This document shows positions 2,667 to 58,269 of a stretch of DNA of 64,000 nt, piece by piece. Each line of letters begins with the position of its first letter. Positions within the stretch are counted from its first letter, which is position 1. This DNA comes from Chaenocephalus aceratus (Eukaryota > Chordata > Actinopteri > Perciformes > Channichthyidae), in NCBI GenBank assembly GCA_023974075.1, contig JAMFTG010000130.1, positions 1-64,000 of the forward strand, given 5' to 3'. The translations under genes and the position numbers were made by a program. Below the pieces are notes generated by a model. That model was not told the origin of the DNA and did not search any database. It saw only the letters and a list, made by a program, of their open reading frames with translations.

Positions 2667-3004
2667 GTTCCGTCGGGACGTGTTCTTTGGTGTCAGCTTG
2701 GTGTGTAAGAGGCTTTAAAGAGTCGGTTGAGTCACCAAAACAAATCAGATCCATCTCAATAGTATGACGACAAATGTATTATGTAAATGAGAAAAAGGCC
2801 CATAAGGCAGTGTAGGCAAATTGTATATTTTTCATTTCTTTTGAGAGCTTGCCATCTATTATAATCCTGGTATCACTCTTATGTTTGCATTTAAATATTA
2901 TCTATCATTATTATTTGCCAATTGTTTATTCATTCTGTTGCTGTTATAACTTCATTTAGCTGCTTTGTATAATAAAATGAAAAGAAGAGATGGGCTGGAA
3001 TATT

Positions 3005-3240
3005 CAAACATTTTTCAGCTTTTTTTTCAGAATTAGAACAATTTCAATTTTTTCTTAGTTCTCACTTTTTCACAGAATTTGACTCTTTTTCATAATTTCA
3101 TGAGATTATTTTCTCATATTTGAACTTTTTTCTCAGAATTCAAACTCTTTAGCAGATTTGGACTTTCTTCTCACTTTTTCACGATTCTAATCTAATTATG
3201 TTTTTCATAATTAGATTTTCTTCTTTCTCAGAATTCAAAT
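3005..3240. repeat. Degenerate T-rich short-period repeat, unit 1
   Basis: Low-complexity tract with irregular recurrences of TTTTTCTCAGAATT and TTCACAGAATTTGA, about 20-30 bp apart. It is repeated at equivalent positions in units 2-4. No coding potential. Confidence 0.6.
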
Positions 3241-3457
3241 TTACCCTAAAATATATAAATGCTTAATGTTACTCACCTGTCAGGCTACCTGTAGTCCACA
3301 GGTTTATTTTTTCAAGTAAAAATTGAGCTTTTTGAAACATATTTTGCTGTTTTTGGGTCCGTAGAAATACATTTGCATATACACAACTACGGTGTAGTCA
3401 TGCAATGAATGAAACACTTGGGTCACAGGTTCCTCAACAGCGCATTACAAGACATCT

Positions 3458-3907
3458 GTGGGACGGGTGGCGCAGTGGTCTGTGCCTCTGATCATCAGAT
3501 CAAGGGGGGTGCTGGGGAACTCCAGTTCGAAACCCGCTCCTGCTGCCACTGCGTCAGGCCGTTGTGTCCTTGGGCAAGACACTTCACCCGGATTTGCTCC
3601 TATGGGTATTGTCCACAGTACATGTATAATATCAATGTGTACTTGTACAAGTGCCTCGATGACTGTGAGGCGTGATGGACGGTGTGGCGCAGTGCGCTGT
3701 GCAATGATCAAGGGGTGAAACCCGCTGCTGCTGCGTCTGTAAAGCCGGTGTGTCCTTGGGCAAGACACTTCACCTGAACTTGCTCCTGTGGGTATTGTCC
3801 ACAGTGACCATTGCATGTATAAAAAATATATGTGTAATGTGTATCTGTAAAGCGCTTTGAGCACTGGAAAAGCGCTATAATAAATGTAAGGAATTATTAT
3901 TATTATT
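3458..3907 (+). mobile_element. Dimeric tRNA-derived SINE, unit 1
   Basis: A 450-bp element with a tRNA-like head: A-box-like GGTGGCGCAGTGG at about 3466 and B-box-like AGTTCGAAACC at about 3523. A core GTGTCCTTGGGCAAGACACT follows. A second degenerate head starts near 3674 (GATGGACGGTGTGGCGCAGT) with a second copy of the same core. The tail has AAAGCGCTTTGAG and AAAAGCGCTATAATAAAT, ending in (ATT)n. It is flanked by ATCT on both sides (3454-3457, 3908-3911). The empty site is seen intact in unit 3 at 30881-30884, which defines the ends exactly. Confidence 0.88.
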
Positions 3908-3911
3908 ATCT

Positions 3912-5559
3912 ATCAATATGTACCTCCACCATTAAACTGTCGTATTCTGCACATTTCTTATTCTATCTACATACATAAGAGTATCATTAATGTGTATAAT
4001 ATCAGTTAAAATAAGTGCTTCAACATAGTTAACATTGCAGGAAAGCAATATATTAGACGTTAAGTACTTTGTCAGGCTTAATATTTAGCTGTAGATAGAC
4101 TTTTTTCTTAATCAAAAGAAGACCTTAACCTAAAGTGTTATTTAATGTTTAAATAAAGCCTAATTAGTTTGTATGTTTTGCACCTCCTGTAAATATCTTT
4201 GGACATCCTGCACTAAACTATTTTATCGTAGAGATCACTTAGAGTATCTTATTGATATTTTCTATTCTATATTTCTATCATTGACCTTCTTCTTTCCCCT
4301 ATGAAAGTATGTACTCTTAATATTTTTAGGTTTTCATCAAATATAACGTATCAACACAACAATGAAATAACCTGTTTTAACCACTAGGCGGTTAAAGCAC
4401 TCAGCAAATGTGCTGCTGTTTCCAGTTTAGTTTATGACGGATGTATTTTGTTATCCACACATATATTGTTTTTATATTTGTGACACCAAACCGACAGAAA
4501 GATGGTCTTAACATGACCCAGTGGTCTCGTTAATAAAAATAATATTATCAAACATAATATTAAAATGAACTCTTATTTTGAAAATACAGCTTCCTGTGTT
4601 CGAATGAGCTGCTCCGACCCTCGGTCCTGACGGAATCCAAAAGTCCGACATTATACAACAAACAAATAAATAAACACAAGGATAATCGTTTCTTATTGTT
4701 GAGTAAATAACAGTGTGGTTTAGAAAAGAATACAAAGTTAGACGGAGAAAACGATGAAGCAATACAGATGTCAGTTTTCTGAGCCCCTCCTCTCCCCGTA
4801 ACTGACGGCAACAAAAGTCAGACATTATTCAATTAAAATAAAGACGTAAACACAATAAGTGTGGCTTGATATTGAGTTAGAAACAGGTTGATAACGCTGT
4901 GAGAATGGATCTGCGGAGAGCGTTTCTCCGCCATCCCAACTCGTCTATTACCAACGTTCAGGGAGCTCAATGCAAGTCAATGGGACGCCCTGGTAGTTGA
5001 AACTCGATGCTAAAGGGCCCCCGTGCGTTGGAAGGTGACGACAGGGACCCTGACATAACGTCACCATCGGCCGAGTTGGCAGTGAGAATGTGTTGCATCG
5101 ACATGTGAAAAGACATTATCTTCTGAAGCTGAAACGATAACATGGACCTTTCTCTCAGAGCCAGCCTGCTCCACTCGGGGGAGAGGAAACATGTCAATGG
5201 AAACACAATGCATTTATATTTGTACCCTCTCTTTACGCGTGCAAGTAGAAATATTTGTATTAGTGTGTTGTATGAGCTGTATTTGATTTATTTACACAAT
5301 GATGTGATTTTTTCACGATAAATACAATTGTATTTATTTTACAATGTGTTTTCATACAATCATACGTAATGGGATGAACATTTACTTTAGCATCAGTAAC
5401 TAAAGATATTAAATAAATGTTAAAAGTACAAAGCAGCAAAACAAAAGTCACTTAATAACAGTCTGTTAAAGGTGATTTAAACCTGAGAGCAGGATTAGCT
5501 GAAAAGAGTCCAAGGAAGCTCATTTAACAAACCAATGATACGGTGATACAAATGGAATG
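3912..5559. other. Intergenic spacer, no recognised gene, unit 1
   Basis: AT-rich sequence to about 4850. Then a more GC-balanced stretch (4880-5220) has a hairpin of GCGGAGA and TCTCCGC at about 4913-4931 and the motif CAATGCAAGTCAATGGGA, which looks like part of a dispersed repeat. No open frame in either strand shows a recognisable domain. The 79-aa minus frame at 4967-5206 is not supported. Confidence 0.5.
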
Positions 5560-9919: not shown

Positions 9920-10447
9920 ATGCCTCGGGCGCTCAGAGTGGCTAGAATTACTGAGGTGGAACGTCTGGCAGCAGCCAACAGACACCTCTCCTTGTCACAT
10001 CCTCCTCCAGATCAATTCGGCCGTTCCCGGCGACATGAGGGAGCGATGGCTATGTGTGCTCCCCCCAATAGAAGGACTAGAAACAGGCTGTCCTCTAAAG
10101 TGGATCGGCTAGCTGCCGATAGTGGCATGATGAAGTCGGTTGGCGCCCCTCCTTCGGTTGGCGCCCCTCCTTCGGTTGGCGCCCCTCCTTCGGTTGGCGC
10201 CCCTCCTTCGGTTGGCGCCCCTCCTTCGGTTGGCGCCCCTCCTTCGGTTGGCGCACCTCTGTATGAGGACGCCTTGTCGCTGGTACAGACTCATCGCCAG
10301 GTTTCGCTGGCCCAGTCACCACTAACTGAGGCATGTAGGAGAGTCCTCCGTAGCGTACCAGTCGAGCCAGGGGAGCTGTTTAGGTCAGCTGCCCTGGAGA
10401 CACTGGAGCGTGCCGCCCAACCTAGGCAGACCAGGCAGCAGCACTAG
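9920..10447 (+). pseudogene. DIRS gag-like frame with SVGAPP repeats
   Basis: A 175-codon open frame at the position expected for DIRS ORF1. It is basic and proline-rich, with about seven copies of a six-residue unit (SVGAPP) encoded by an 18-bp repeat at about 10138-10252. The next stretch, in another frame (about 10447-10680), is Arg/Pro/Ser-rich and looks like its continuation after a frameshift. No zinc knuckle is seen. The gag assignment rests on position within the DIRS. Confidence 0.5.
10138..10252. repeat. 18-bp tandem repeat
   Basis: Repeats of GTTGGCGCCCCTCCTTCG, about six and a half copies, all in phase with the surrounding frame. Confidence 0.93.
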
Positions 10448-14049: not shown

Positions 14050-15693
14050 ATGGCTGCTGCCAGCTGCCTGCTGACTGAAGATCAGTTTCTGTGCTCCATC
14101 TGTCTGGATGTGTTCACTGATCCAATCGCCATACCATGTGGACACAACTTCTGCAAAGCCTGCATCTCTCAACACTGGGATAGAAATGTCCAGTTAAAGT
14201 GTCCTAACTGTAATAAGCTCTTCTACAAAAGACCTGAGCTGCTGGTCAACACGTTCATCTCTGAGATGGCTGCTCAGTTCAGACAGTCAGCTCAACAGAA
14301 AGCCAGCAGAAGCAGCTCAGAGCAACACGTTTTCAAACCAGGAGAAGTTCCCTGTGACGTATGCACTGGAACTAGACTGAAGGCCCTGAAGTCCTGCCTG
14401 GTGTGTCTGGAGTCCTACTGTGAGACTCACCTGGAGCCTCACCTGACAAGAACAGGCCTGAAGAAACATCAGCTGATCGACCCTGAGGAGAACCTGGAAG
14501 GCAGGATGTGTGTGAAGCACAATAAACTGCTGGAGCTGTTCTGTAAGACCGACCAGGTGTGTGTCTGCATGCTCTGCACTGTTTTAGACCACAAGACACA
14601 TGATGTTGTTCCTCTGAAAGAAGAATATGAAGGAAAGAAGGCTGAGCTGGGGAAGACAGAGGCTGAAATTCAGCAGATGATCCAGAAGAGACGACTGAAG
14701 ATCCAGGAGATGAATCGCTCAGTGGAGCTCAGTAAGGAAGGAGCAGACAGAGAGATAGCAGATGGTGTTCAGGTCTTCACCGCTCTGAAGGAGTCTGTTG
14801 AGAGAAGCCAGGCCGAGCTCATGGACACCATCAAAGAGAAGCAGAGAGAGACAGAGGAACAGGCTGAAGGCTTCATCAAAGAGCTGGAACAGGAAGTCTC
14901 TGAGCTGAAGAAGAGAAGCTCTGAGGTGGAGCAGCTCTCACGCTCTGAAGACCAGCTCCACCTCCTCCAAAGCTTCACGTCCCTGAACGCTGCTCCACCC
15001 ACCAAGAACTGGACAGAAGTCAGGGTCCGTCCTCCTTCATATGAGGGGACTGTGAGTAGAGCTGTGACTCAGCTGGAGGAGACGCTCAGGAAACAGATGA
15101 AGAAGCTGCTCGAGGTGGAGCTGAAGAGGGTCCAGCGGTCTGAGGTGGAGGTGACTCTTGATCCTGATACAGCACATCCCAGACTCATCCTGTCTGATGA
15201 TAGAAAACAAGTGAAACATGGTGATGTGAGGAAGAATCTCCCAAACAATCCAGAGAGATTTGATTCTTGTGTCACTGTTTTAGCAAAGCAGAGTTTCTCT
15301 TCAGGAAGATTTTATTACGAGGTTCAGGTTGAAGGGAAGACTAAGTGGGATCTAGGAGTGGCCAGAGAGTCGATCAACAGGAAGGGAATCATCACAGCGT
15401 CTCCTCAGGAAGGTTACTGGGTGATATGGTTGAGGAATGGAAATGAGTACAAAGCTTGTGCTGTTCCTCGAGTCGATCTCTCTCTGAAGTCTCAGCCTCA
15501 GAAGGTGGGGGTGTTTGTGGATTATGAGGAGGGTCTGGTCTCCTTTTATGATGTTGATGCTGCAGCTCTGATCTACTCCTTCACTGGCTGCTGCTTCAAA
15601 GAGAAACTCTACCCATTCTTTGGTCCCTATCTTAATGAAGGTGGTAAAAACTCTGCCCCTCTGATCATCTCTCCTGTCAATCACACCGAGTAG
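14050..15693 (+). CDS. TRIM E3 ubiquitin ligase, copy 1 (547 aa)
   Basis: Predicted RING-type E3 ubiquitin ligase of the TRIM C-IV class, closest by eye to fish bloodthirsty-related/TRIM39-like proteins. TRIM25-like or finTRIM names are alternatives. RING ligands: C15, C18, C30, H32, C35, C38, C51, C54. B-box-1-like cysteines 102-124; B-box 2 C154, H157, C165, C173, C176, H181, H184. Coiled coil about 190-305; PRY-SPRY about 366-545 (LDPDTAHPRLILS, FSSGRFYYEVQVEGKTKWDLGVA). The whole protein lies in one exon. The start at 14050 was chosen because the acceptor CCCCAG ends at 14043, so the in-frame ATG at 14017 is intronic. Its RING flank (RNVQLKCPNCNKLFYKRPEL) differs most from the other copies. 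One copy of the ten-residue linker unit (EVELKRVQRS). Likely interferon-induced through the 6120 element. Confidence 0.93.
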   Translation: MAAASCLLTEDQFLCSICLDVFTDPIAIPCGHNFCKACISQHWDRNVQLKCPNCNKLFYKRPELLVNTFISEMAAQFRQSAQQKASRSSSEQHVFKPGEVPCDVCTGTRLKALKSCLVCLESYCETHLEPHLTRTGLKKHQLIDPEENLEGRMCVKHNKLLELFCKTDQVCVCMLCTVLDHKTHDVVPLKEEYEGKKAELGKTEAEIQQMIQKRRLKIQEMNRSVELSKEGADREIADGVQVFTALKESVERSQAELMDTIKEKQRETEEQAEGFIKELEQEVSELKKRSSEVEQLSRSEDQLHLLQSFTSLNAAPPTKNWTEVRVRPPSYEGTVSRAVTQLEETLRKQMKKLLEVELKRVQRSEVEVTLDPDTAHPRLILSDDRKQVKHGDVRKNLPNNPERFDSCVTVLAKQSFSSGRFYYEVQVEGKTKWDLGVARESINRKGIITASPQEGYWVIWLRNGNEYKACAVPRVDLSLKSQPQKVGVFVDYEEGLVSFYDVDAAALIYSFTGCCFKEKLYPFFGPYLNEGGKNSAPLIISPVNHTE

Positions 15694-19975: not shown

Positions 19976-20183
19976 AATATATAAATGCTTAATGTTACTC
20001 ACCTGTCAGGCTACCTTTAGTCCAAAGGTTTATTTTTTCAAGTAAAGATTGAGCTTTTTGAAACATATTTTGCTGTTTTTGGGTCCGTAGAAATACATTT
20101 GCATATACACAACTACGGTGTAGTTATGCAATGAATGAAACACTTGGGTCACAGGTTCCTCAACAGCGCATTACAAGACATCT

Positions 20184-20633
20184 GTGGGACGGGTGGCGCA
20201 GTGGTCTGTGCCTCTGATCATCAGATCAAGGGGGGTGCTGGGGAACTCCAGTTCGAAACCCGCTCCTGCTGCCACTGCGTCAGGCCGTTGTGTCCTTGGG
20301 CAAGACACTTCACCCGGATTTGCTCCTATGGGTATTGTCCACAGTACATGTATAATATCAATGTGTACTTGTACAAGCGCCTCGATGACTGTGAGGCGTG
20401 ATGGACGGTGTGGCGCAGTGCGCTGTGCAATGATCAAGGGGTGAAACCCGCTGCTGCTGCGTCTGTAAAGCCGGTGTGTCCTTGGGCAAGACACTTCACC
20501 TGAACTTGCTCCTGTGGGTATTGTCCACAGTGACCATTGCATGTATAAAAAATATATGTGTAATGTGTATCTGTAAAGCGCTTTGAGCACTGGAAAAGCG
20601 CTATAATAAATGTAAGGAATTATTATTATTATT
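20184..20633 (+). mobile_element. Dimeric tRNA-derived SINE, unit 2
   Basis: 450 bp, same length and ends as the unit 1 copy, flanked by ATCT. It differs from the unit 1 copy by very few bases (for example CAAGCGCC against CAAGTGCC), so the copies were duplicated with the unit rather than inserted independently. Confidence 0.88.
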
Positions 20634-20637
20634 ATCT

Positions 20638-24753: not shown

Positions 24754-26397
24754 ATGTCTGCTGCCAGCTGTCTGCCGACTGAAGATCAGTGTCTGTGCTC
24801 CATCTGTCTGGATGTGTTCACTGATCCAGTCAGCACACCATGTGGACACAACTTCTGTAAAGCCTGCATCTCTCAACACTGGGACAGAAATGTCCCGAGT
24901 CAGTGTCCCAACTGTAAAAAGGTGTTCAACATAAAGCCTGATCTGCAGGTCAACACTTTCATCTCTGAGATGGCTGCTCAGTTCAGACAGTCAGCTCAAC
25001 AGAAAGCCAGCAGCAGCAGCTCAGAGCAACACGTTGTCAAACCAGGAGAAGTTCCCTGTGACGCCTGCACTGGAACCAGACTGAAGGCCCTGAAGTCCTG
25101 CCTGGTGTGTCTGGAGTCCTACTGTGAGACTCACCTGGAGCCTCACCTGACAAGAGCAGGCCTGAAGAAACATCAGCTGATCGACCCTGAGGAGAACCTG
25201 GAAAGCAGGATGTGTGTGAAGCACGATAAACTGCTGGAGCTGTTCTGTCAGACCGACCAGGTGTGTGTCTGCATGCTCTGCACGGTTTTAGACCACAAGA
25301 CACATGACGTTGTTCCTCTGAAAGAAGGATATGAAGGAAAGAAGGCTGAGCTGGGGAAGACAGAGGCTGAAATTCAGCTGATGATCCAGAAGAGACGACT
25401 GAAGATCCAGGAGATGAATCGCTCAGTGGAGCTCAGTAAGGAAGGAGCAGACAGAGAGATAGCAGATGGTGTTCAGGTCTTCACCGCTCTGAAGGAGTCT
25501 GTTGAGAGAAGCCAGGCCGAGCTCATGGACACCATCAAAGAGAAGCAGAGAGAGACAGAGGAACAGGCTGAAGGCTTCATCAAAGAGCTGGAACAGGAAG
25601 TCTCTGAGCTGAAGAAGAGGAGCTCTGAGGTGGAGCAGCTCTCACGCTCTGAAGACCAGCTCCACCTCCTCCAAAGCTTCACGTCCCTGAACGCTGCTCC
25701 ACCCACCAAGAACTGGACAGAAGTCAGGGTCCGTCCACCTTCATATGAGGGGACTGTGAAGAGAGCTGTGACTCAGCTGGAGGAGACACTCAGGAAACAG
25801 ATGAAGAAGCTGCTCGAGGTGGAGCTGAAGAGGGTCCAGCAGTCTGAGGTGGAGGTGACTCTTGATCCTGATACAGCACATCCCAGACTCATCCTGTCTG
25901 ATGATAGAAAACAAGTTCAACATGGTGATGTGAAGAAGGATCTCCCAGACAATCCAGAGAGATTTGATTCTTGTGCTTGTGTTTTAGCAAAGCAGAGTTT
26001 CTCTTCAGGAAGATTTTATCACGAGGTTCAGGTTGAAGGAAAGACTGACTGGGATCTAGGAGTGGCCAGAGAGTCGATCAACAGGAAGGGAAAGATCTCA
26101 CTGTCTCCTCAGAAAGGTTACTGGGTGATATGGTTGAGGAATGGAAATGAGTACTCAGCTCTTGCTGTTCCTCCAGTCCGTCTCTCTCTGAAGTCTCAGC
26201 CTCAGAAGGTGGGGGTGTTTGTGGATTATGAGGAGGGTCTGGTCTCCTTTTATGATGTTGATGCTGCAGCTCTGATCTACTCCTTCACTGGCTGCTGCTT
26301 CAAAGAGAAACTCTACCCATACTTTTGTCCTTGTAAGAACAATGATGGTAAAAACTCTGCCCCTCTGATCATCTCTCCTGTCAATCACACCGAGTAG
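24754..26397 (+). CDS. TRIM E3 ubiquitin ligase, copy 2 (547 aa)
   Basis: Same architecture and length as copy 1, starting six bases after the AG acceptor at 24747. All eight RING ligands and the B-box 2 ligands are present, and the coiled coil is uninterrupted. RING second half reads RNVPSQCPNCKKVFNIKPDL, the form shared with copies 3 and 4. One linker unit (EVELKRVQQS, residues 355-364). PRY carries KDLPDNPERFDSCACV, like copy 4. SPRY carries GYWVIWLRNGNEYSALAV, like copy 1. The C-terminal loop reads YFCPCKNNDGKN, with two extra cysteines not found in copies 1 and 3. The reading frame is intact and it is probably functional. Cytoplasmic location is expected from the family: no signal peptide or membrane segment is seen. 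Confidence 0.94.
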   Translation: MSAASCLPTEDQCLCSICLDVFTDPVSTPCGHNFCKACISQHWDRNVPSQCPNCKKVFNIKPDLQVNTFISEMAAQFRQSAQQKASSSSSEQHVVKPGEVPCDACTGTRLKALKSCLVCLESYCETHLEPHLTRAGLKKHQLIDPEENLESRMCVKHDKLLELFCQTDQVCVCMLCTVLDHKTHDVVPLKEGYEGKKAELGKTEAEIQLMIQKRRLKIQEMNRSVELSKEGADREIADGVQVFTALKESVERSQAELMDTIKEKQRETEEQAEGFIKELEQEVSELKKRSSEVEQLSRSEDQLHLLQSFTSLNAAPPTKNWTEVRVRPPSYEGTVKRAVTQLEETLRKQMKKLLEVELKRVQQSEVEVTLDPDTAHPRLILSDDRKQVQHGDVKKDLPDNPERFDSCACVLAKQSFSSGRFYHEVQVEGKTDWDLGVARESINRKGKISLSPQKGYWVIWLRNGNEYSALAVPPVRLSLKSQPQKVGVFVDYEEGLVSFYDVDAAALIYSFTGCCFKEKLYPYFCPCKNNDGKNSAPLIISPVNHTE

Positions 26398-34910: not shown

Positions 34911-36854
34911 ATGTCTGCTGCCAGCTGTCTGCCGACTGAAGATCAGTGTCTGTGCTCCATCTGTCTGGATGTGTTCACTGATCCAGTCAGCACACCATGT
35001 GGACACAACTTCTGTAAAGCCTGCATCTCTCAACACTGGGACAGAAATGTCCCGAGTCAGTGTCCCAACTGTAAAAAGGTGTTCAACATAAAGCCTGATC
35101 TGCTGGTCAACACTTTCATCTCTGAGATGGCTGCTCAGTTCAGACAGTCAGCTCAACAGAAAGCCAGCAGCAGCAGCTCAGAGCAACACGTTGTCAAACC
35201 AGGAGAAGTTCCCTGTGACGCCTGCACTGGAACCAGACTGAAGGCCCTGAAGTCCTGCCTGGTGTGTCTGGAGTCCTACTGTGAGACTCACCTGGAGCCT
35301 CACCTGACAAGAGCAGGCCTGAAGAAACATCAGCTGATCGACCCTGAGGAGAACCTGGAAAGCAGGATGTGTGTGAAGCACGATAAACTGCTGGAGCTGT
35401 TCTGTCAGACCGACCAGGTGTGTGTCTGCATGCTCTGCACTGTTTTAGACCACAAGACACATGATGTTGTTCCTCTGAAAGAAGGATATGAAGGAAAGAA
35501 GGCTGAGCTGGGGAAGACAGAGGCTGAAATTCAGCTGATGATCCAGAAGAGACGACTGAAGATCCAGGAGATGAATCGCTCAGTGGAGCTCAGTAAGGAA
35601 GGAGCAGACAGAGAGATAGCAGATGGTGTTCAGGTCTTCACCGCTCTGAAGGAGTCTGTTGAGAGAAGCCAGGCCGAGCTCATGGACACCATCAAAGAGA
35701 AGCAGAGAGAGACAGAGGAACAGGCTGAAGGCTTCATCAAAGAGCTGGAACAGGAAGTCTCTGAGCTGAAGAAGAGGAGCTCTGAGGTGGAGCAGCTCGC
35801 ACGCTCTGAAGACCAGCTCCACCTCCTCCAAAGCTTCACGTCCCTGAACGCTGCTCCCCCCACCAAGAACTGGACAGAAGTCAGGGTCCGTCCTCCTTCA
35901 TATGAGGGGACTGTGAGGAGAGCTGTGACTCAGCTGGAGGAGACGCTCAGGAAACAGATGAAGAAGCTGCTCGAGGTGGAGCTGAAGAGGGTCCAGCAGT
36001 CTGAGGTGGAGCTGAAGAGGGTCCAGCAGTCTGAGGTGGAGGTGAAGAGGGTCCAGCAGTCTGAGGTGGAGCTGAAGAGGGTCCAGCAGTCTGAGGTGGA
36101 GCTGAAGAGGGTCCAGCAGTCTGAGGTGGAGCTGAAGAGGGTCCAGCAGTCTGAGGTGGAGCTGAAGAGGGTCCAGCAGTCTGAGCTGGAGCTGAAGAGG
36201 GTCCAGCAGTCTGAGGTGGAGGTGAAGAGGGTCCAGCAGTCTGAGGTGGAGCTGAAGAGGGTCCAGCAGTCTGAGGTGGAGCTGAAGAGGGTCCAGCAGT
36301 CTGAGGTGGAGGTGACTCTTGATCCTGATACAGCACATCCCTATCTCATCCTGTCTGATGATAGAAAACAAGTGAAACATGGCGATGTGAAGAAGAACCT
36401 CCCAAACAATCCAGAGAGATTTGATTCTTGTGTCACTGTTTTAGCAAAGCAGAGTTTCTCTTCAGGAAGATTTTATTACGAGGTTCAGGTTAAAGGAAAG
36501 ACTGACTGGGATCTAGGAGTGGCCAGAGAGTCGATCAACAGGAAGGGAAGCATCACACTGTCTCCTCAGAAAGGTTACTGGACGATAGTGTTGAGGAATG
36601 AAAATGAGTACCAAGCTTTTGCTAGTCCTCCAGTCCGTCTCTCTCTGAAGTCTCAGCCTCAGAAGGTGGGGGTGTTTGTGGATTATGAGGAGGGTCTGGT
36701 CTCCTTTTATGATGTTGATGCTGCAGCTCTGATCTACTCCTTCACTGGCTGCTGCTTCAAAGAGAAACTCTACCCATACTTTGGTCCCAGTCTTAATGAT
36801 GGTGGTAAAAACTCTGCCCCTCTGATCATCTCTCCTGTCAATCACACCGAGTAG
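34911..36854 (+). CDS. TRIM E3 ubiquitin ligase, copy 3 (647 aa, repeat-expanded)
   Basis: RING, B-box and coiled coil match copy 2 almost residue for residue (one visible coil change, QLARSED for QLSRSED). Residues 355-464 are eleven copies of a ten-residue unit, consensus EVELKRVQQS, with variants EVEVKRVQQS (twice) and ELELKRVQQS (once). This makes the protein exactly 100 residues longer than copies 1 and 2. The PRY-SPRY that follows (from about 469) is complete. It has KNLPNNPERFDSCVTV, as in copy 1, but GYWTIVLRNENEYQAFA, as in copy 4. The expansion is in frame, with no stop or frameshift, so a full-length product is expected. The insert is highly charged and predicted helical, and would lengthen the arm between dimer core and ligand-binding domain. 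Confidence 0.94.
   Translation: MSAASCLPTEDQCLCSICLDVFTDPVSTPCGHNFCKACISQHWDRNVPSQCPNCKKVFNIKPDLLVNTFISEMAAQFRQSAQQKASSSSSEQHVVKPGEVPCDACTGTRLKALKSCLVCLESYCETHLEPHLTRAGLKKHQLIDPEENLESRMCVKHDKLLELFCQTDQVCVCMLCTVLDHKTHDVVPLKEGYEGKKAELGKTEAEIQLMIQKRRLKIQEMNRSVELSKEGADREIADGVQVFTALKESVERSQAELMDTIKEKQRETEEQAEGFIKELEQEVSELKKRSSEVEQLARSEDQLHLLQSFTSLNAAPPTKNWTEVRVRPPSYEGTVRRAVTQLEETLRKQMKKLLEVELKRVQQSEVELKRVQQSEVEVKRVQQSEVELKRVQQSEVELKRVQQSEVELKRVQQSEVELKRVQQSELELKRVQQSEVEVKRVQQSEVELKRVQQSEVELKRVQQSEVEVTLDPDTAHPYLILSDDRKQVKHGDVKKNLPNNPERFDSCVTVLAKQSFSSGRFYYEVQVKGKTDWDLGVARESINRKGSITLSPQKGYWTIVLRNENEYQAFASPPVRLSLKSQPQKVGVFVDYEEGLVSFYDVDAAALIYSFTGCCFKEKLYPYFGPSLNDGGKNSAPLIISPVNHTE
35973..36302 (+). repeat. 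30-bp coding minisatellite, 11 copies
   Basis: Unit GAGGTGGAGCTGAAGAGGGT plus CCAGCAGTCT. Copies differ only by CTG/GTG swaps at the fourth codon (copies 3 and 9) and the GTG/CTG second codon (copy 8). Such near identity suggests recent slippage or unequal exchange. Confidence 0.98.
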
Positions 36855-41100: not shown

Positions 41101-41320
41101 ATTTACCCGAAAATATATAAATGCTTAATGTTACTCACCTGTCCTGGCTACCTTTAGTCCAAAGGTTTATTTTTTCAAGTAAAGATTGAGCTTTTTGAAA
41201 CATATTTTGCTGTTTTTGGGTCCGTAGAAATACATTTGCATATACACAACTACGGTGTAGTTATGCAATGAATGAAACACTTGGGTCACAGGTTCCTCAA
41301 CAGCGCATTACAAGACATCT

Positions 41321-41770
41321 GTGGGACGGGTGGCGCAGTGGTCTGTGCCTCTGATCATCAGATCAAGGGGGGTGCTGGGGAACTCCAGTTCGAAACCCGC
41401 TCCTGCTGCCACTGCGTCAGGCCGTTGTGTCCTTGGGCAAGACACTTCACCCGGATTTGCTCCTATGGGTATTGTCCACAGTACATGTATAATATCAATG
41501 TGTACTTGTACAAGCGCCTCGATGACTGTGAGGCGTGATGGACGGTGTGGCGCAGTGCGCTGTGCAATGATCAAGGGGTGAAACCCGCTGCTGCTGCGTC
41601 TGTAAAGCCGGTGTGTCCTTGGGCAAGACACTTCACCTGAACTTGCTCCTGTGGGTATTGTCCACAGTGACCATTGCATGTATAAAAAATATATGTGTAA
41701 TGTGTATCTGTAAAGCGCTTTGAGCACTGGAAAAGCGCTATAATAAATGTAAGGAATTATTATTATTATT
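41321..41770 (+). mobile_element. Dimeric tRNA-derived SINE, unit 4
   Basis: 450 bp, flanked by ATCT (41317-41320, 41771-41774). Shares CAAGCGCC with the unit 2 copy. Confidence 0.88.
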
Positions 41771-41774
41771 ATCT

Positions 41775-53224: not shown

Positions 53225-55012
53225 ATGTCTGCTGCCAGCTGTCTGCTGACTGAAGATCAGTGTCTGTGCTCCATCTGTCTGGATGTGTTCACTGATCCAG
53301 TCAGCACACCATGTGGACACAACTTCTGTAAAGCCTGCATCTCTGAACACTGGGATAGAAATGTCCCGAGTCAGTGTCCCAACTGCAAAGAGGTGTTCAA
53401 CATAAAGCCTGAGCTGCGGGTCAACACGTTCATCTCTGAGATGGCTGCTCAGTTCAGACAGTCAGCTCAACAGAAAGCCAGCAGCAGCAGCTCAGAGCAA
53501 CACGTTGTCAAACCAGGAGAAGTTCCCTGTGACGCCTGCACTGGAACCAGACTGAAGGCCCTGAAGTCCTGCCTGGTGTGTCTGGAGTCCTACTGTGAGA
53601 CTCACCTGGAGCCTCACCTGACAAGAGCAGGCCTGAAGAAACATCAGCTGATCGACCCTGAGGAGAACCTGGAAAGCAGGATGTGTGTGAAGCACGATAA
53701 ACTGCTGGAGCTGTTCTGTCAGACCGACCAGGTGTGTGTTTGCATGCTCTGCACGGTTTCAGACCACAAGACACATGATGTTGTTCCTCTGAAAGAAGGA
53801 TATGAAGGAAAGAAGGCTGAGCTGGGGAAGACAGAGGCTGAAATTCAGCTGATGATCCAGAAGAGACGACTGAAGATCCAGGAGATGAATCGCTCAGTGG
53901 AGCTCAGTAAGGAAGGAGCAGACAGAGAGATGGCAGATGGTGTTCAGGTCTTTACCGCTCTGAAGGAGTCTGTTGAGAGAAGCCAGGCCGAGCTCATCGA
54001 CACCATCAAAGAGAAGCAGAGAGAGACAGAGGAACAGGCTGAAGGCTTCATCAAAGAGCTGGAACAGGAGGTCTCTGAGCTGAAGAAGAGAAGCTCTGAG
54101 GTGGAGCAGCTCTCACGCTCTGAAGACCAGCTCCACCTCCTCCAAAGCTTCACGTCCCTGAACGCTGCTCCCCCCACCAAGAATTGGACAGAAGTCAGGG
54201 TCCGTCCACCTTCATATGAGGGGACTGTGAGGAGAGCTGTGACTCAGCTGGAGGAGACGCTCAGGAAACAGATGAAGAAGCTGCTCGAGCTGAAGAGGGT
54301 CCAGCAGTCTGAGGTGGAGCTGAAGAGGGTCCAGCAGTATGAGGTGGAGCTGAAGAGGGTCCAGCAGTCTGAGGTGGAGCTGAAGAGGGTCCAGCAGTCT
54401 GAGGTGGAGCTGAAGAGGGTCCAGCAGTCTGAGGTGGAGCTGAAGAGGGTCCAGCAGAATGAGGTGGAGGTGACTCTTGATCCTGATACAGCACATCCCA
54501 GACTCATCCTGTCTGCTGATGGAAAACAAGTGAAACTTAGTGATGTGTGGAAGGATCTCCCAGACAATCCAGAGAGATTTGATTTGTGTGCTTGTGTTTT
54601 AGCAAAGCAGAGTTTCTCTTCAGGAAGATTTTATTACGAGGTTCAGGTTGAAGGGAAGACTCACTGGGATCTAGGAGTGGCCAGAGAGTCGATCAACAGG
54701 AAGGGACAGATCTCACTGACTCCTCAGGAAGGTTACTGGACGATAGTGTTGAGGAATGAAAATGAGTACCAAGCTTTTGCTGGTCCTCCAGTCTGTGTCT
54801 CTCTGAAGTCTCAGCCTCAGAAGGTGGGGGTGTTTGTGGATTATGAGGAGGGTCTGGTCTCCTTTTATGATGTTGATGCTGCAGCTCTGATCTACTCCTT
54901 CACTGGCTGCTGCTTCAAAGAGAAACTCTACCCATACTTTAGTCCTTGTAACAACTATGGTGGTAAAAACTCTGCCCCTCTGATCATCTCTCCTGTCAAT
55001 CTCACTGAGTAG
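53225..55012 (+). CDS. TRIM E3 ubiquitin ligase, copy 4 (595 aa, repeat-expanded)
   Basis: Complete RING (ISEHWDRNVPSQCPNCKEVF), B-box, coiled coil and PRY-SPRY. Residues 355-412 hold six linker units, the first shortened by two residues (LLELKRVQQ for LLEVELKRVQQ), with S-to-Y and S-to-N variants in units 2 and 6 (VQQYE, VQQNE). PRY has the most divergent start of the four (ILSADGKQVKLSDVWKDLPD). SPRY has GQISLTPQEGYWTIVLRNEN, an added Cys (PPVCVSL), and the C-terminal loop YFSPCNNYGGKN. The last residues read SPVNLTE, where the others have SPVNHTE. The frame is intact despite the rearranged promoter side and a LINE in the 3' UTR. Expression may differ from its siblings. Confidence 0.93.
   Translation: MSAASCLLTEDQCLCSICLDVFTDPVSTPCGHNFCKACISEHWDRNVPSQCPNCKEVFNIKPELRVNTFISEMAAQFRQSAQQKASSSSSEQHVVKPGEVPCDACTGTRLKALKSCLVCLESYCETHLEPHLTRAGLKKHQLIDPEENLESRMCVKHDKLLELFCQTDQVCVCMLCTVSDHKTHDVVPLKEGYEGKKAELGKTEAEIQLMIQKRRLKIQEMNRSVELSKEGADREMADGVQVFTALKESVERSQAELIDTIKEKQRETEEQAEGFIKELEQEVSELKKRSSEVEQLSRSEDQLHLLQSFTSLNAAPPTKNWTEVRVRPPSYEGTVRRAVTQLEETLRKQMKKLLELKRVQQSEVELKRVQQYEVELKRVQQSEVELKRVQQSEVELKRVQQSEVELKRVQQNEVEVTLDPDTAHPRLILSADGKQVKLSDVWKDLPDNPERFDLCACVLAKQSFSSGRFYYEVQVEGKTHWDLGVARESINRKGQISLTPQEGYWTIVLRNENEYQAFAGPPVCVSLKSQPQKVGVFVDYEEGLVSFYDVDAAALIYSFTGCCFKEKLYPYFSPCNNYGGKNSAPLIISPVNLTE
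54287..54460 (+). repeat. 30-bp coding minisatellite, 6 copies (first partial)
   Basis: 174 bp: one 24-bp copy and five 30-bp copies of the same unit as at 35973-36302. An A substitution gives QQYE in the second copy and TCT to AAT gives QQNE in the last. Confidence 0.97.
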
Positions 55013-55148: not shown

Positions 55149-55173
55149 ATACTGATGAGTATGTTCTAATGTA
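55149..55173. repeat. LINE target-site duplication, left copy
   Basis: 25 bp from ATACTGATGAGTATG to TCTAATGTA, repeated exactly at 58245-58269. In other units this sequence occurs once in the TRIM 3' UTR. Confidence 0.95.
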
Positions 55174-55239
55174 ATAGTCCCCCCACCAAGAACTAATAGT
55201 CAGATCGCTACTCCTGCTGATTTTAAAGCTAGGTCTGGG

Positions 55240-55785
55240 TTGGGTTTCATCCACTTGAATGTGCGCAGTCTGTTAGGTAAACTAGATTTTGTCCATATCT
55301 GGGCAAAATCGACTGACGCTGACGTCATTGTCTTATCTGAAACATGGCTAAATAAATCTATTTTGGCCTCTGACATTGCCTTAAATGGTTTTAATGTGTA
55401 TCGTACCGACCGGCCTAATAAAGGTGGTGGCGTTGCAATTTATGTTAAGAATAAGTTCAGTGTAACCACATTAATTTCCAAATCGATCAGTAAGCAATTT
55501 GAATTTTTAGCCTTAAATATAGAAGTGGCAAAGGGTCAACAGGTCATGGTGGTGGGCTTCTACAGACCCCCCTCAGCTGTCAAAGACTCCTTGTCTTCAC
55601 TAGCAAATCTTTTATCTCAACTAGACTACAAGGAAATAGTGCTACTTGGAGATTTTAACTGGGACTGGTTAACTGCAGTGTCAGAGGATTTTAAAAACCT
55701 TTGTATCTCTTTAAATGTTACTCAGATTGTGGACAGTCCTACTCGCCCAAATATTAAGTCCCCTAATAAATCCTTCCCTAATTGA
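55240..55785 (+). pseudogene. LINE endonuclease domain
   Basis: Exonuclease-endonuclease-phosphatase fold of a non-LTR element: FIHLNVRSLLGKLD at the start, VIVLSETWLN (catalytic Glu), GGGVAIYVK, VVGFYRPP, then VLLGDFNWDW (Asp-x-Asn). The frame ends at 55785 by a frameshift near 55760. The terminal SLIDLILTN and SDHCVV motifs lie in the next frame. Confidence 0.9.
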
Positions 55786-57409
55786 TCTCATTTTAACTAA
55801 TGTGCCCCATAAATATTCTTCTGTGGGAGTATTTGCAAATGATCTGAGCGATCACTGTGTTGTAGCCACAATTAGGGACACTAAGGTCCAAAAGGTTAAA
55901 CCTCGCATTATCATCAAGAGAGACAGAAAACATTTTGTGGAGCAGGGTTTTGTTCATGCTCTGTTTGATTTTGATTGGGGTAAAATCGATCTGTGTGCTG
56001 ATCTAGAAACCGCATGGTCTTATTTTTATCTTGGTTTTATGGAGATCATTGATAGACATGCACCCCTGCGTAAATTTAGAATAAAGGGACGAGACAATCC
56101 TTGGTTTTCTGTTGAGCTGTCTAGTCTCCTTCATGAGAGAAACAAGGCCTGGGCAAAGGCTAGGAAACCAGGCTCAGAGATAGAATGGCTGCGTTTTAGG
56201 CAGCTAAGGAATAGCTTCACTTCACATGTCAAAAGTGCAAAGTCGAAGTACTATTTGTCAGTTACCACAAAGAATCTGAATAATCCTAGGAAATTTTGGA
56301 AAGCAATAAAATCGATATCAACCGGTGAGATCCGTAATGAGCTACCTCCGTGCCTTCCCACAGCATCTGGCTCTATATCGGACAGGGCTACTATGCTCAA
56401 TTGCTTTAATGAGCATTTTGTGTCCTGCGGTTCTCTATTTGATTCTGTCACTAACTCTGCTTCTGTGAACACCACAGTCTGTGACTCTGAACAACGTGGT
56501 CTGGAAAACCCTTTCAGTTTTACCCCTTTTACTGTTGATGTTGTTCATGAAGCATTATCCAAGCTAGATCCTAGGAAACCGGCTGGCCCGGACAACATAG
56601 AACCTTTCTTTTTAAAGATATCTGCAGATTTTATTTCTCCACCTCTTACTTCTCTTTTTAACCTCTCCCTCAGCACTAACACAATTACAAAAGTATGGAA
56701 GTCTGCTTATGTCTTGCCTTTACTGAAAGGAGGGGAGGCAACTATTTTAAATAACTATAGACCTATCTCTAAGTTGTCAGTTCTGGCTAAGGTTCTTGAA
56801 CGCCTAGTGAGTGAACAGGTAAAGGAGTTTTTATGTACAAATGACATCCTGTCTGAGCATCAGTCAGGCTTCAGAAAGCAGCACAGCACCATCACTGCCA
56901 CGATGAAAGTGGTAAATGACATCACTAGTATTTCAGATAATAAGCAGAGTTGTGCAGCTCTGTTTATTGACCTTTCCAAAGCGTTTGACACCGTTGATCA
57001 TCGCATTTTAAAGCAGAGGCTACTCAGTATTGGCATATCCAGCCTTGCAGTGGGGTGGTTTGTGAACTACCTCTCTGAAAGGTCCCAATGTGTTCACTTT
57101 GATGGACTGTCTTCTGAGTGGTTAAACATTTCTAATGGTGTACCACAAGGTTCTGTTTTAGGACCACTTTTATTCTCCATATATATTAACAGCGTAGGTG
57201 ATAATGTGGATTAAGCTACTTTACATTTGGATGCGGATGATACCGTGATGTTCTGTGCAGGTCCCACCGTTAAAGAGGCTGTTGTTAAATTACAGGCTGT
57301 TTTTAACACTATTCAGACTCAGCTCTCTGAACTAAAGCTTCTTTTAAATGTGGATCAAACCAAGGTAATGCTCTTTCAAAAGCTAAAAAGACACCAGAGC
57401 CTGTTTTAG
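55715..57409 (+). pseudogene. LINE reverse transcriptase, with stop and altered catalytic motif
   Basis: Continues from the end of the endonuclease (LIDLILTN, SDHC) into RT: GPDNIEPFFLK, NNYRPISKLSVLAKVLERLV, EHQSGFRKQHST, LFIDLSKAFDTVDH (motif A Asp), NGVPQGSVLGPLLFSIYIN. A TAA stop at 57212-57214 interrupts the frame just before the catalytic box, which reads LDADDTVMF instead of the usual LYADDT. Both changes are inactivating. A frameshift follows near 57385. Confidence 0.92.
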
Positions 57410-58084
57410 ATATTGTAACTACGCAAGGAACAAAACTTGAAGTTGTTGCCTGTTACAAATACCTTGGTATCTGGCTTGATGATTGTCTCTCTTTTAAACT
57501 TCATGTCAATAACCTGCTAAAAAAACTGAGGGTTAGGCTAGGGTTCTTCTCCAGGAACATGTCCTGTTTCTCGCTTGAGGCCAGGAAGAGGCTAGTCACT
57601 GTGACCTTTGACCTGTGCTGGACTATGGGGATCTGATCTATATGAATGCACCTGCCCATTGCCTGGTCAAGTTAGATGCTGCGTATCACAGCGCTCTGAG
57701 ATGTGTGACAAACTGTAAAGCATTAACCCATCACTGTACCCTGTATGCAAGGGCTGGTTTGCTTTCACTAACTGTACGGAGGCTCAGTCACTGGTAAATT
57801 TTTATATACAAAGCCATGCTAGGGAAACTTGCATCTTATATCTGCTCCCTGATCTCACGGAGAATTGTAAGTGGCTACTGCCTGAGATCGAATGCTGTGG
57901 TTTTATTAAATGTGCCAACTGCTAGGACTGTCTTAGGGAAGACAGCTTTTAGATGCGCAGCTCCTCTGTCTTGGAACAGTCTGCAAATTAAATGGAAACT
58001 GAACAATCTGGTGCCACTAAATGTTTTTAAAGCTCGGTTGGATGCTAGTCAATCGGAAGCTGTTGGTACCTGCTCATGTGGATA
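57410..58084 (+). pseudogene. LINE RT thumb and C-terminal region, frameshifted
   Basis: In shifted frames: YKYLGIWLDD near 57449-57483, then LDYGDLIYMNAP at 57618, HHCTLYARAGLLSLTVRRLS, and TAFRCAAPLSWNSL at about 57940. At least two more frame changes and a stop separate these. Only decay products. Confidence 0.8.
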
Positions 58085-58269
58085 ATTATGTAAATGATGC
58101 TGGATGATGTCCTTTTGTTGTTCTGTTTATGCTTTTATGTTTCATGTGGAACTACTTGAACAGGTCTCCCTTGGAAAAGAGATCAATGATCTCAATGGGA
58201 TTTTATCTGTATAAATAAAGGTTTGAAATTAAATGAAATGATGTATACTGATGAGTATGTTCTAATGTA

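Follow-up and report, generated by a model that had tools for sequence, protein, structure and literature searches.

The window analysed here, a 64-kb stretch of DNA from the icefish Chaenocephalus aceratus, contains four tandem genes of the btr (bloodthirsty, TRIM39-like) family, all on the forward strand and each with its whole coding sequence in a single open frame. A splice-acceptor-like CCCCAG lies just 5' of the ATG in g1, g2 and g3, and a TCCCAG in g4. The genes are as follows:

14050..15693, + strand: g1, btr/TRIM39-like, 547 aa, one linker unit
24754..26397, + strand: g2, btr/TRIM39-like, 547 aa, one linker unit
34911..36854, + strand: g3, btr/TRIM39-like, 647 aa, eleven linker units
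53225..55012, + strand: g4, btr/TRIM39-like, 595 aa, six linker units

The domain order is RING, B-box, TRIM_CC, PRY and SPRY in all four proteins, and in each of them the curated Pfam cut-offs are exceeded for TRIM_CC, PRY, SPRY, B-box and at least one RING model. Among the best 120 of 7976 database matches, the closest relatives are notothenioid, namely the bloodthirsty proteins of N. coriiceps and C. aceratus at 94% identity; the other notothenioid matches listed are named TRIM39-like, TRIM21-like, TRIML1, RFP-like or hypothetical. Some proteins of other fish, 1000-1130 residues long, outscore these relatives in bits because they carry two TRIM units per chain. Based on domain order and on the names of their relatives, the four genes are classified as btr/TRIM39-like class IV TRIM genes. 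In trees, the window proteins cluster mostly with proteins of Chaenocephalus aceratus and Pseudochaenichthys georgianus (2 of 75 proteins, P0086 and P0122, were dropped because a search for the linker pattern failed in them, and fragments shorter than 300 residues for the RING-B-box-coiled-coil part, RBCC, or 150 for SPRY were excluded). The family is an expanding one, probably with an immune role; for another icefish, C. hamatus, the available text of PMC9560024 gives up to 36 trim35 and trim39-like homologs, places trim genes within regions of selective sweep and describes two cDNAs that reduced SVCV replication in carp cells.

The window also holds other repeats and elements. A non-coding 10-bp minisatellite, GACGTGAGGC, lies in duplicated blocks with 8, 9, 6 and 12 complete copies at 2584, 19309, 30031 and 40415; an identical 154-residue open frame recurs on the reverse strand of three duplicated blocks (3445-3909, 20171-20635 and 41308-41772); and an 18-bp tandem repeat of 6.9 copies (10136-10259) sits within an open frame reading (SVGAPP)n. 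About 160 bp past the g4 stop codon is a LINE-like insert (55174-58244) with endonuclease- and reverse-transcriptase-like frames, recognised by eye; a 25-bp target-site duplication, its two copies beginning at 55149 and 58245, encloses it.

The four genes differ in the copy number of a 30-bp unit in the linker that joins the coiled coil to PRY-SPRY:

15112..15141, + strand: single linker unit of g1, EVELKRVQRS
25816..25845, + strand: single linker unit of g2, EVELKRVQQS
35973..36302, + strand: g3 array of 11 in-frame 30-bp units, residues 355-464 (TRF)
to 36311, + strand: 9-bp tail GAGGTGGAG, the start of a twelfth unit, 3' of the g3 array
54287..54460, + strand: g4 array of 6 units, of which the first has only 24 bp (TRF)

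Unit counts, together with TRF on the arrays, bear out the copy numbers of 1, 1, 11 and 6 that a sequence-only reading of this DNA had given, as well as its exact gain of 100 residues in g3 (647 against 547, in a set of 547, 547, 647 and 595 aa). In g4 the gain over the one-copy genes is 48 residues and not 50 because the first unit holds just 8 residues. On the g3 array, whose unit is GAGGTGGAGCTGAAGAGGGTCCAGCAGTCT (EVELKRVQQS), TRF returns 11.4 copies with 97% matches and a score of 658, whereas none of 30 codon shuffles of the g3 coding sequence scores above their maximum of 41. The same reading had named EVELKRVQQS as the unit throughout; this fits g2 and most units of g3 and g4, but g1 has EVELKRVQRS, and single-residue deviations occur in 3 of the 11 g3 units and in 2 of the 6 g4 units besides the truncated first one. 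Its placement of the array between coiled coil and PRY-SPRY agrees with the Pfam boundaries in g3, where residue 352 is the last of TRIM_CC and residue 468 the first of PRY. That the reading frame is always kept is true of all four genes but trivial, since a 30-bp unit preserves it automatically, and a kept frame alone is thus no sign of selection.

The one-copy genes themselves contain what looks like the seed of these arrays:

25816..25858, + strand: seed of the one-copy locus in g2, two copies of GAGGTGGAG(C/G)TGA at a distance of 30 bp that agree at 12 of 13 bases; g1 has the same pair

The two seed copies in g1 and g2, GAGGTGGAGCTGA and GAGGTGGAGGTGA, form a 13-bp direct repeat, and their 30-bp spacing explains both the length of the unit and the kept frame. 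In most of the non-notothenioid fish proteins that could be parsed, the unit is followed by AVDV or EVDV, and in notothenioids by EVEV; at the protein level, the second EVEV copy therefore looks like a notothenioid novelty. Ancestrally, the unit would be the last part of the L2 helix leading from the coiled coil into PRY-SPRY, and the change to EVEV after it in notothenioids would have created the near-perfect 13-bp repeat of the one-copy genes. Slippage or unequal crossing-over between the seed copies, an event that we infer, would then have added 30-bp units in icefishes. Some units read EVEV in place of EVEL, like the terminal EVEV, which would be the trace expected from slippage between internal and terminal copies.

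The distribution of the expansion was assessed in 121 proteins besides those of the window, 71 from notothenioids and 50 from other fish, taken from the best 120 of 7976 matches to an eleven-unit query and from a repeat-centred search. Among the matches listed, 14 of 35 icefish entries have 2-10 units, and more than one unit occurs in none of the 36 entries from other notothenioids (Fisher 9.6e-6, for a list that is repeat-biased and entries that are not independent). By species, multi-copy entries make up 6 of the 15 listed for C. aceratus (2, 4, 4, 5, 5 and 5 units), all 3 for C. esox (9, 9 and 10), 5 of 16 for P. georgianus (2, 2, 3, 3 and 4) and neither the single C. gunnari entry nor any of those listed for Gymnodraco (0 of 15), Trematomus (0 of 19), Notothenia (0 of 1) and Pogonophryne (0 of 1). 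Ranking by an eleven-unit query, with the best 120 of 7976 matches listed, biases the icefish fraction upward, but it would also have favoured multi-unit proteins from outside the icefishes. Two repeat-centred searches, in which 7994 and 7993 candidates were scored, returned 11 and 13 proteins, from icefishes only (P0127 and P0128, from the second, stand outside the copy-number counts).

Fish btr/TRIM39-like proteins at large, a large family, share the five domains, and 33 of the 50 non-notothenioid proteins yielded 54 linkers, 53 with one ELKRVQQ-like motif and 1 with none (the linker was not parsable in the other 17); in contrast to the icefish arrays, no parsed entry from outside the icefishes has more than one unit. 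The bloodthirsty entries of N. coriiceps and C. aceratus, 547 and 548 aa long, also contain the unit. The expansions are preceded by three junction types, LLE-VELK, LLE-LK and LLSE-VELK, which suggest that expansion recurred or that genes converted one another. Within the reach of these searches, the array appears to be a recurrent coding minisatellite that is confined to icefishes and makes the L2 helix longer. The novelty claimed for it holds in part: the titles and abstracts of the top open-licence PMC matches report no TRIM linker expanded by decapeptides, but the same expansion is found in 14 icefish database entries.

These entries do not always represent separate genes. In P. georgianus, P0046, P0070 and P0071 have a common RBCC part, the isoform names X3, X4 and X5, 3, 2 and 1 units respectively, and SPRY domains that partly differ, which hints at splice models joining neighbouring genes within the repeat array. 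That such isoform-named entries share an RBCC and differ in unit number, that GT and AG dinucleotides occur in every unit, and that the translations of g3 and g4 are absent among the best 120 of 7976 matches where g1 and g2 are present (clustering at 90% identity could hide them) would all suit the view that the arrays are an assembly artefact or are spliced out, leaving no long protein. We regard this as very improbable, as expanded arrays occur in database entries of C. esox, P. georgianus and the window's own species, unit variants differ in a way that is no plain echo, and the unit itself is found in the bloodthirsty entries mentioned above.

A more serious challenge, and the main rival to any function that depends on the length of the arm, is neutral tolerance, according to which the seed destabilises the site, additional in-frame residues are tolerated in the L2 hinge and the copy number of a coding minisatellite drifts without effect. 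The non-coding minisatellite at the locus varies in copy number too (8, 9, 6, 12), the frame is preserved without selection by the 30-bp unit, and close paralogs range from 1 to 11 copies. All six base differences between the full units of the g3 and g4 arrays change amino acids and none is silent, so that purifying selection is not visible, at very few sites. Furthermore, SPRY is damaged in two multi-unit entries, P0124 (5 units, 467 aa), which has an unrelated tail inside SPRY, and P0055 (9 units), which is missing a stretch of PRY-SPRY. On the other side, the array is in frame with SPRY in g3 and g4, and of the 19 Trematomus entries listed, most of which have a very similar one-copy linker, EVELKRVQQYEVEV, none is expanded. 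In 78 full units (83 of 84 units were counted), positions 2 and 4 vary between V and L alone, and K5, V7 and Q8 are invariant, the exception being the first unit of P0125, beyond the scanned range, with F at position 7. Youth or homogenisation could also explain this uniformity. Altogether, the neutral reading is a real possibility, albeit one that we think less probable, and a length-dependent function of the arm is plausible.

Directly 3' of the array begins a part of the protein that changes fast:

36312..36851, + strand: PRY-SPRY part of g3, fast-evolving compared with RING-B-box-coiled coil

Pairwise dN/dS among g1-g4 is 1.04-2.55 in SPRY and 0.16-0.71 in RBCC, in all six pairs each; by counts of changes, the contrast falls below 0.05 in 4 of the 6 pairs, which are not independent, the others being g1-g2 and g1-g3. 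Variable residues number 36 of 180 in SPRY and 32 of 354 in RBCC (33 and 10 without g1), and those of SPRY are mostly clustered at 377-408, 422-431, 446-476 and 522-530 of the one-copy protein. At sites that differ between g1 and g2, mapped with the array excised (position 1 close to the g3 ATG, array at 1062), g3 resembles g2 at 233 of 238 sites up to position 866, then g1 at 12 of 14 sites in 983-1227, again mostly g2 in 1613-1999, and g1 at all 27 sites in 2925-4331. It is laid out as a g2-like upstream region and RBCC, a mostly g1-like stretch around the array that begins about 80 bp 5' of it and ends about 165 bp 3' of it, a mixed SPRY, mostly g2-like sequence around and after the stop codon and g1-like sequence farther downstream. 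Such a mosaic would point to exchange between the tandem genes, by gene conversion or unequal crossing-over.

This raises the question as to whether the array acts mainly at the level of DNA, as a recombination joint between a constrained RBCC and a fast SPRY at which paralogs swap SPRY, its length being a by-product. The switch of g3 from g2-like to g1-like sequence, the fall in g2/g3 identity from 99.3% in RBCC to 93.2% in SPRY at the array, and RBCC and SPRY trees of notothenioid proteins that are discordant by eye are all in keeping with a joint. However, parentage already changes at sites 983, 1006 and 1034, roughly 28-79 bp 5' of the array, and alternates through SPRY, with g2-like sequence returning in 1613-1999, and the switch is therefore not pinned to the array; one-unit g1 and g2 likewise diverge more in SPRY (93.2% identity) than in RBCC (95.9%), and rapid amino-acid change in SPRY alone reduces identity there. 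A role chiefly as a joint thus seems unlikely.

In terms of structure, AlphaFold models the one-copy protein with a helix at 332-362, with block means of 80 and 88 at its end, and the eleven-copy protein with two helices, 332-401 and 408-462, separated by a break at 402-407. The block-mean pLDDT within the eleven-copy array is low to moderate (44-77), and such repeats may perhaps be drawn as helix regardless. The array is composed of 40% DEKR and 30% V/L, has a net charge of 0 and contains 11 i,i+3 and 11 i,i+4 pairs of opposite charge, all acid-to-base, the order that stabilises a helix; like charges are never paired at either spacing. Its hydrophobic moment is 0.051 at 100 and 0.075 at 102.86 degrees per residue and, across seven angles, peaks at 0.375 at 108 degrees; for comparison, H1 of this protein gives 0.327 at 100 degrees. 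A 108-degree stripe would require a pitch of about 59-68 Å. The near-zero moment at 100-103 degrees makes a normal heptad coiled coil unlikely, as had been argued from the ten-residue period, and a left-handed heptad coiled coil was rejected for lack of a stripe at these angles.

Single alpha-helix (SAH) domains have a very high content of E, K and R and few hydrophobic residues. At 40% DEKR and 30% V/L the array has too many hydrophobic residues to pass as a classic SAH domain, and this candidate was rejected; given its favourable i,i+3 and i,i+4 pairs, it may still behave like one. The charged single helix proposed earlier is thus matched by the helix in AlphaFold, at low to moderate confidence, but is not typical by composition. 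The array may instead form an isolated or loosely packed helix, aided by the near-zero body temperature of icefishes. Each unit would add about 15 Å of helix (the 100-residue insert, if helical, is computed to add about 150 Å), and eleven units would give an arm of up to about 165 Å, comparable to the coiled-coil rod of TRIM20. An arm of this length would release SPRY from a site near the centre of the dimer and alter how far the two ligand-binding domains reach and how they are spaced; SPRY may thus be moved away from the dimer, with changed function.

In comparison, the L2 of TRIM5alpha is likewise helical between coiled coil and SPRY; in the available text of PMC5667893, it tethers SPRY, sets its spacing and tunes avidity; polymorphisms and selected residues within L2 also come up there. 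That text mentions no tandem repeat, as opposed to the up to 100 extra residues in icefish, and names it an important unresolved question whether a flexible link or a precise placement holds the SPRY domains of TRIM proteins. TRIM20 (pyrin, PDB 4cg4) is similar in CHS-B30.2 sequence and fold, and the icefish unit aligns with its NVPELIGAQAHAV, directly before B30.2, so that it falls between the last CHS helix and B30.2. TRIM20 has, in the accessible portion of PMC4455283, no repeat, a PYD in place of RING, a coiled-coil helix of about 155 Å and a flexible CHS-B30.2 linker, and for this last reason no rigid ruler need follow for the icefish array. Since the linkers of TRIM5alpha and TRIM20, as far as these two sources extend, place SPRY/B30.2, the location of the array supports its reading as a linker or spacer. 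A tandem duplication also changes the length of an antiviral TRIM in Chlorocebus TRIM5, but there the change lies inside PRYSPRY and not in the preceding helix, and the available part of PMC6907815 describes no long array.

The explanation that we consider best, and somewhat probable, is that btr genes duplicated in tandem and that slippage or unequal crossing-over at the seed repeat lengthens the L2 helix, changing the reach and spacing of SPRY. A stronger version, in which the number of units sets SPRY reach and spacing as a length-tunable L2 arm and the array serves in addition as a joint for swaps of SPRY modules, appears rather doubtful; if true, this family would scan the geometry of its targets by repeat number and their chemistry by SPRY sequence. 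Icefishes offer a natural series of close relatives with 1, 2, 3, 4, 5, 6, 9, 10 and 11 tether units, and the question of SPRY positioning (PMC5667893) is therefore directly testable. On our preferred explanation, a chance direct repeat can become a length-variable coding element in an expanding and probably immune gene family.
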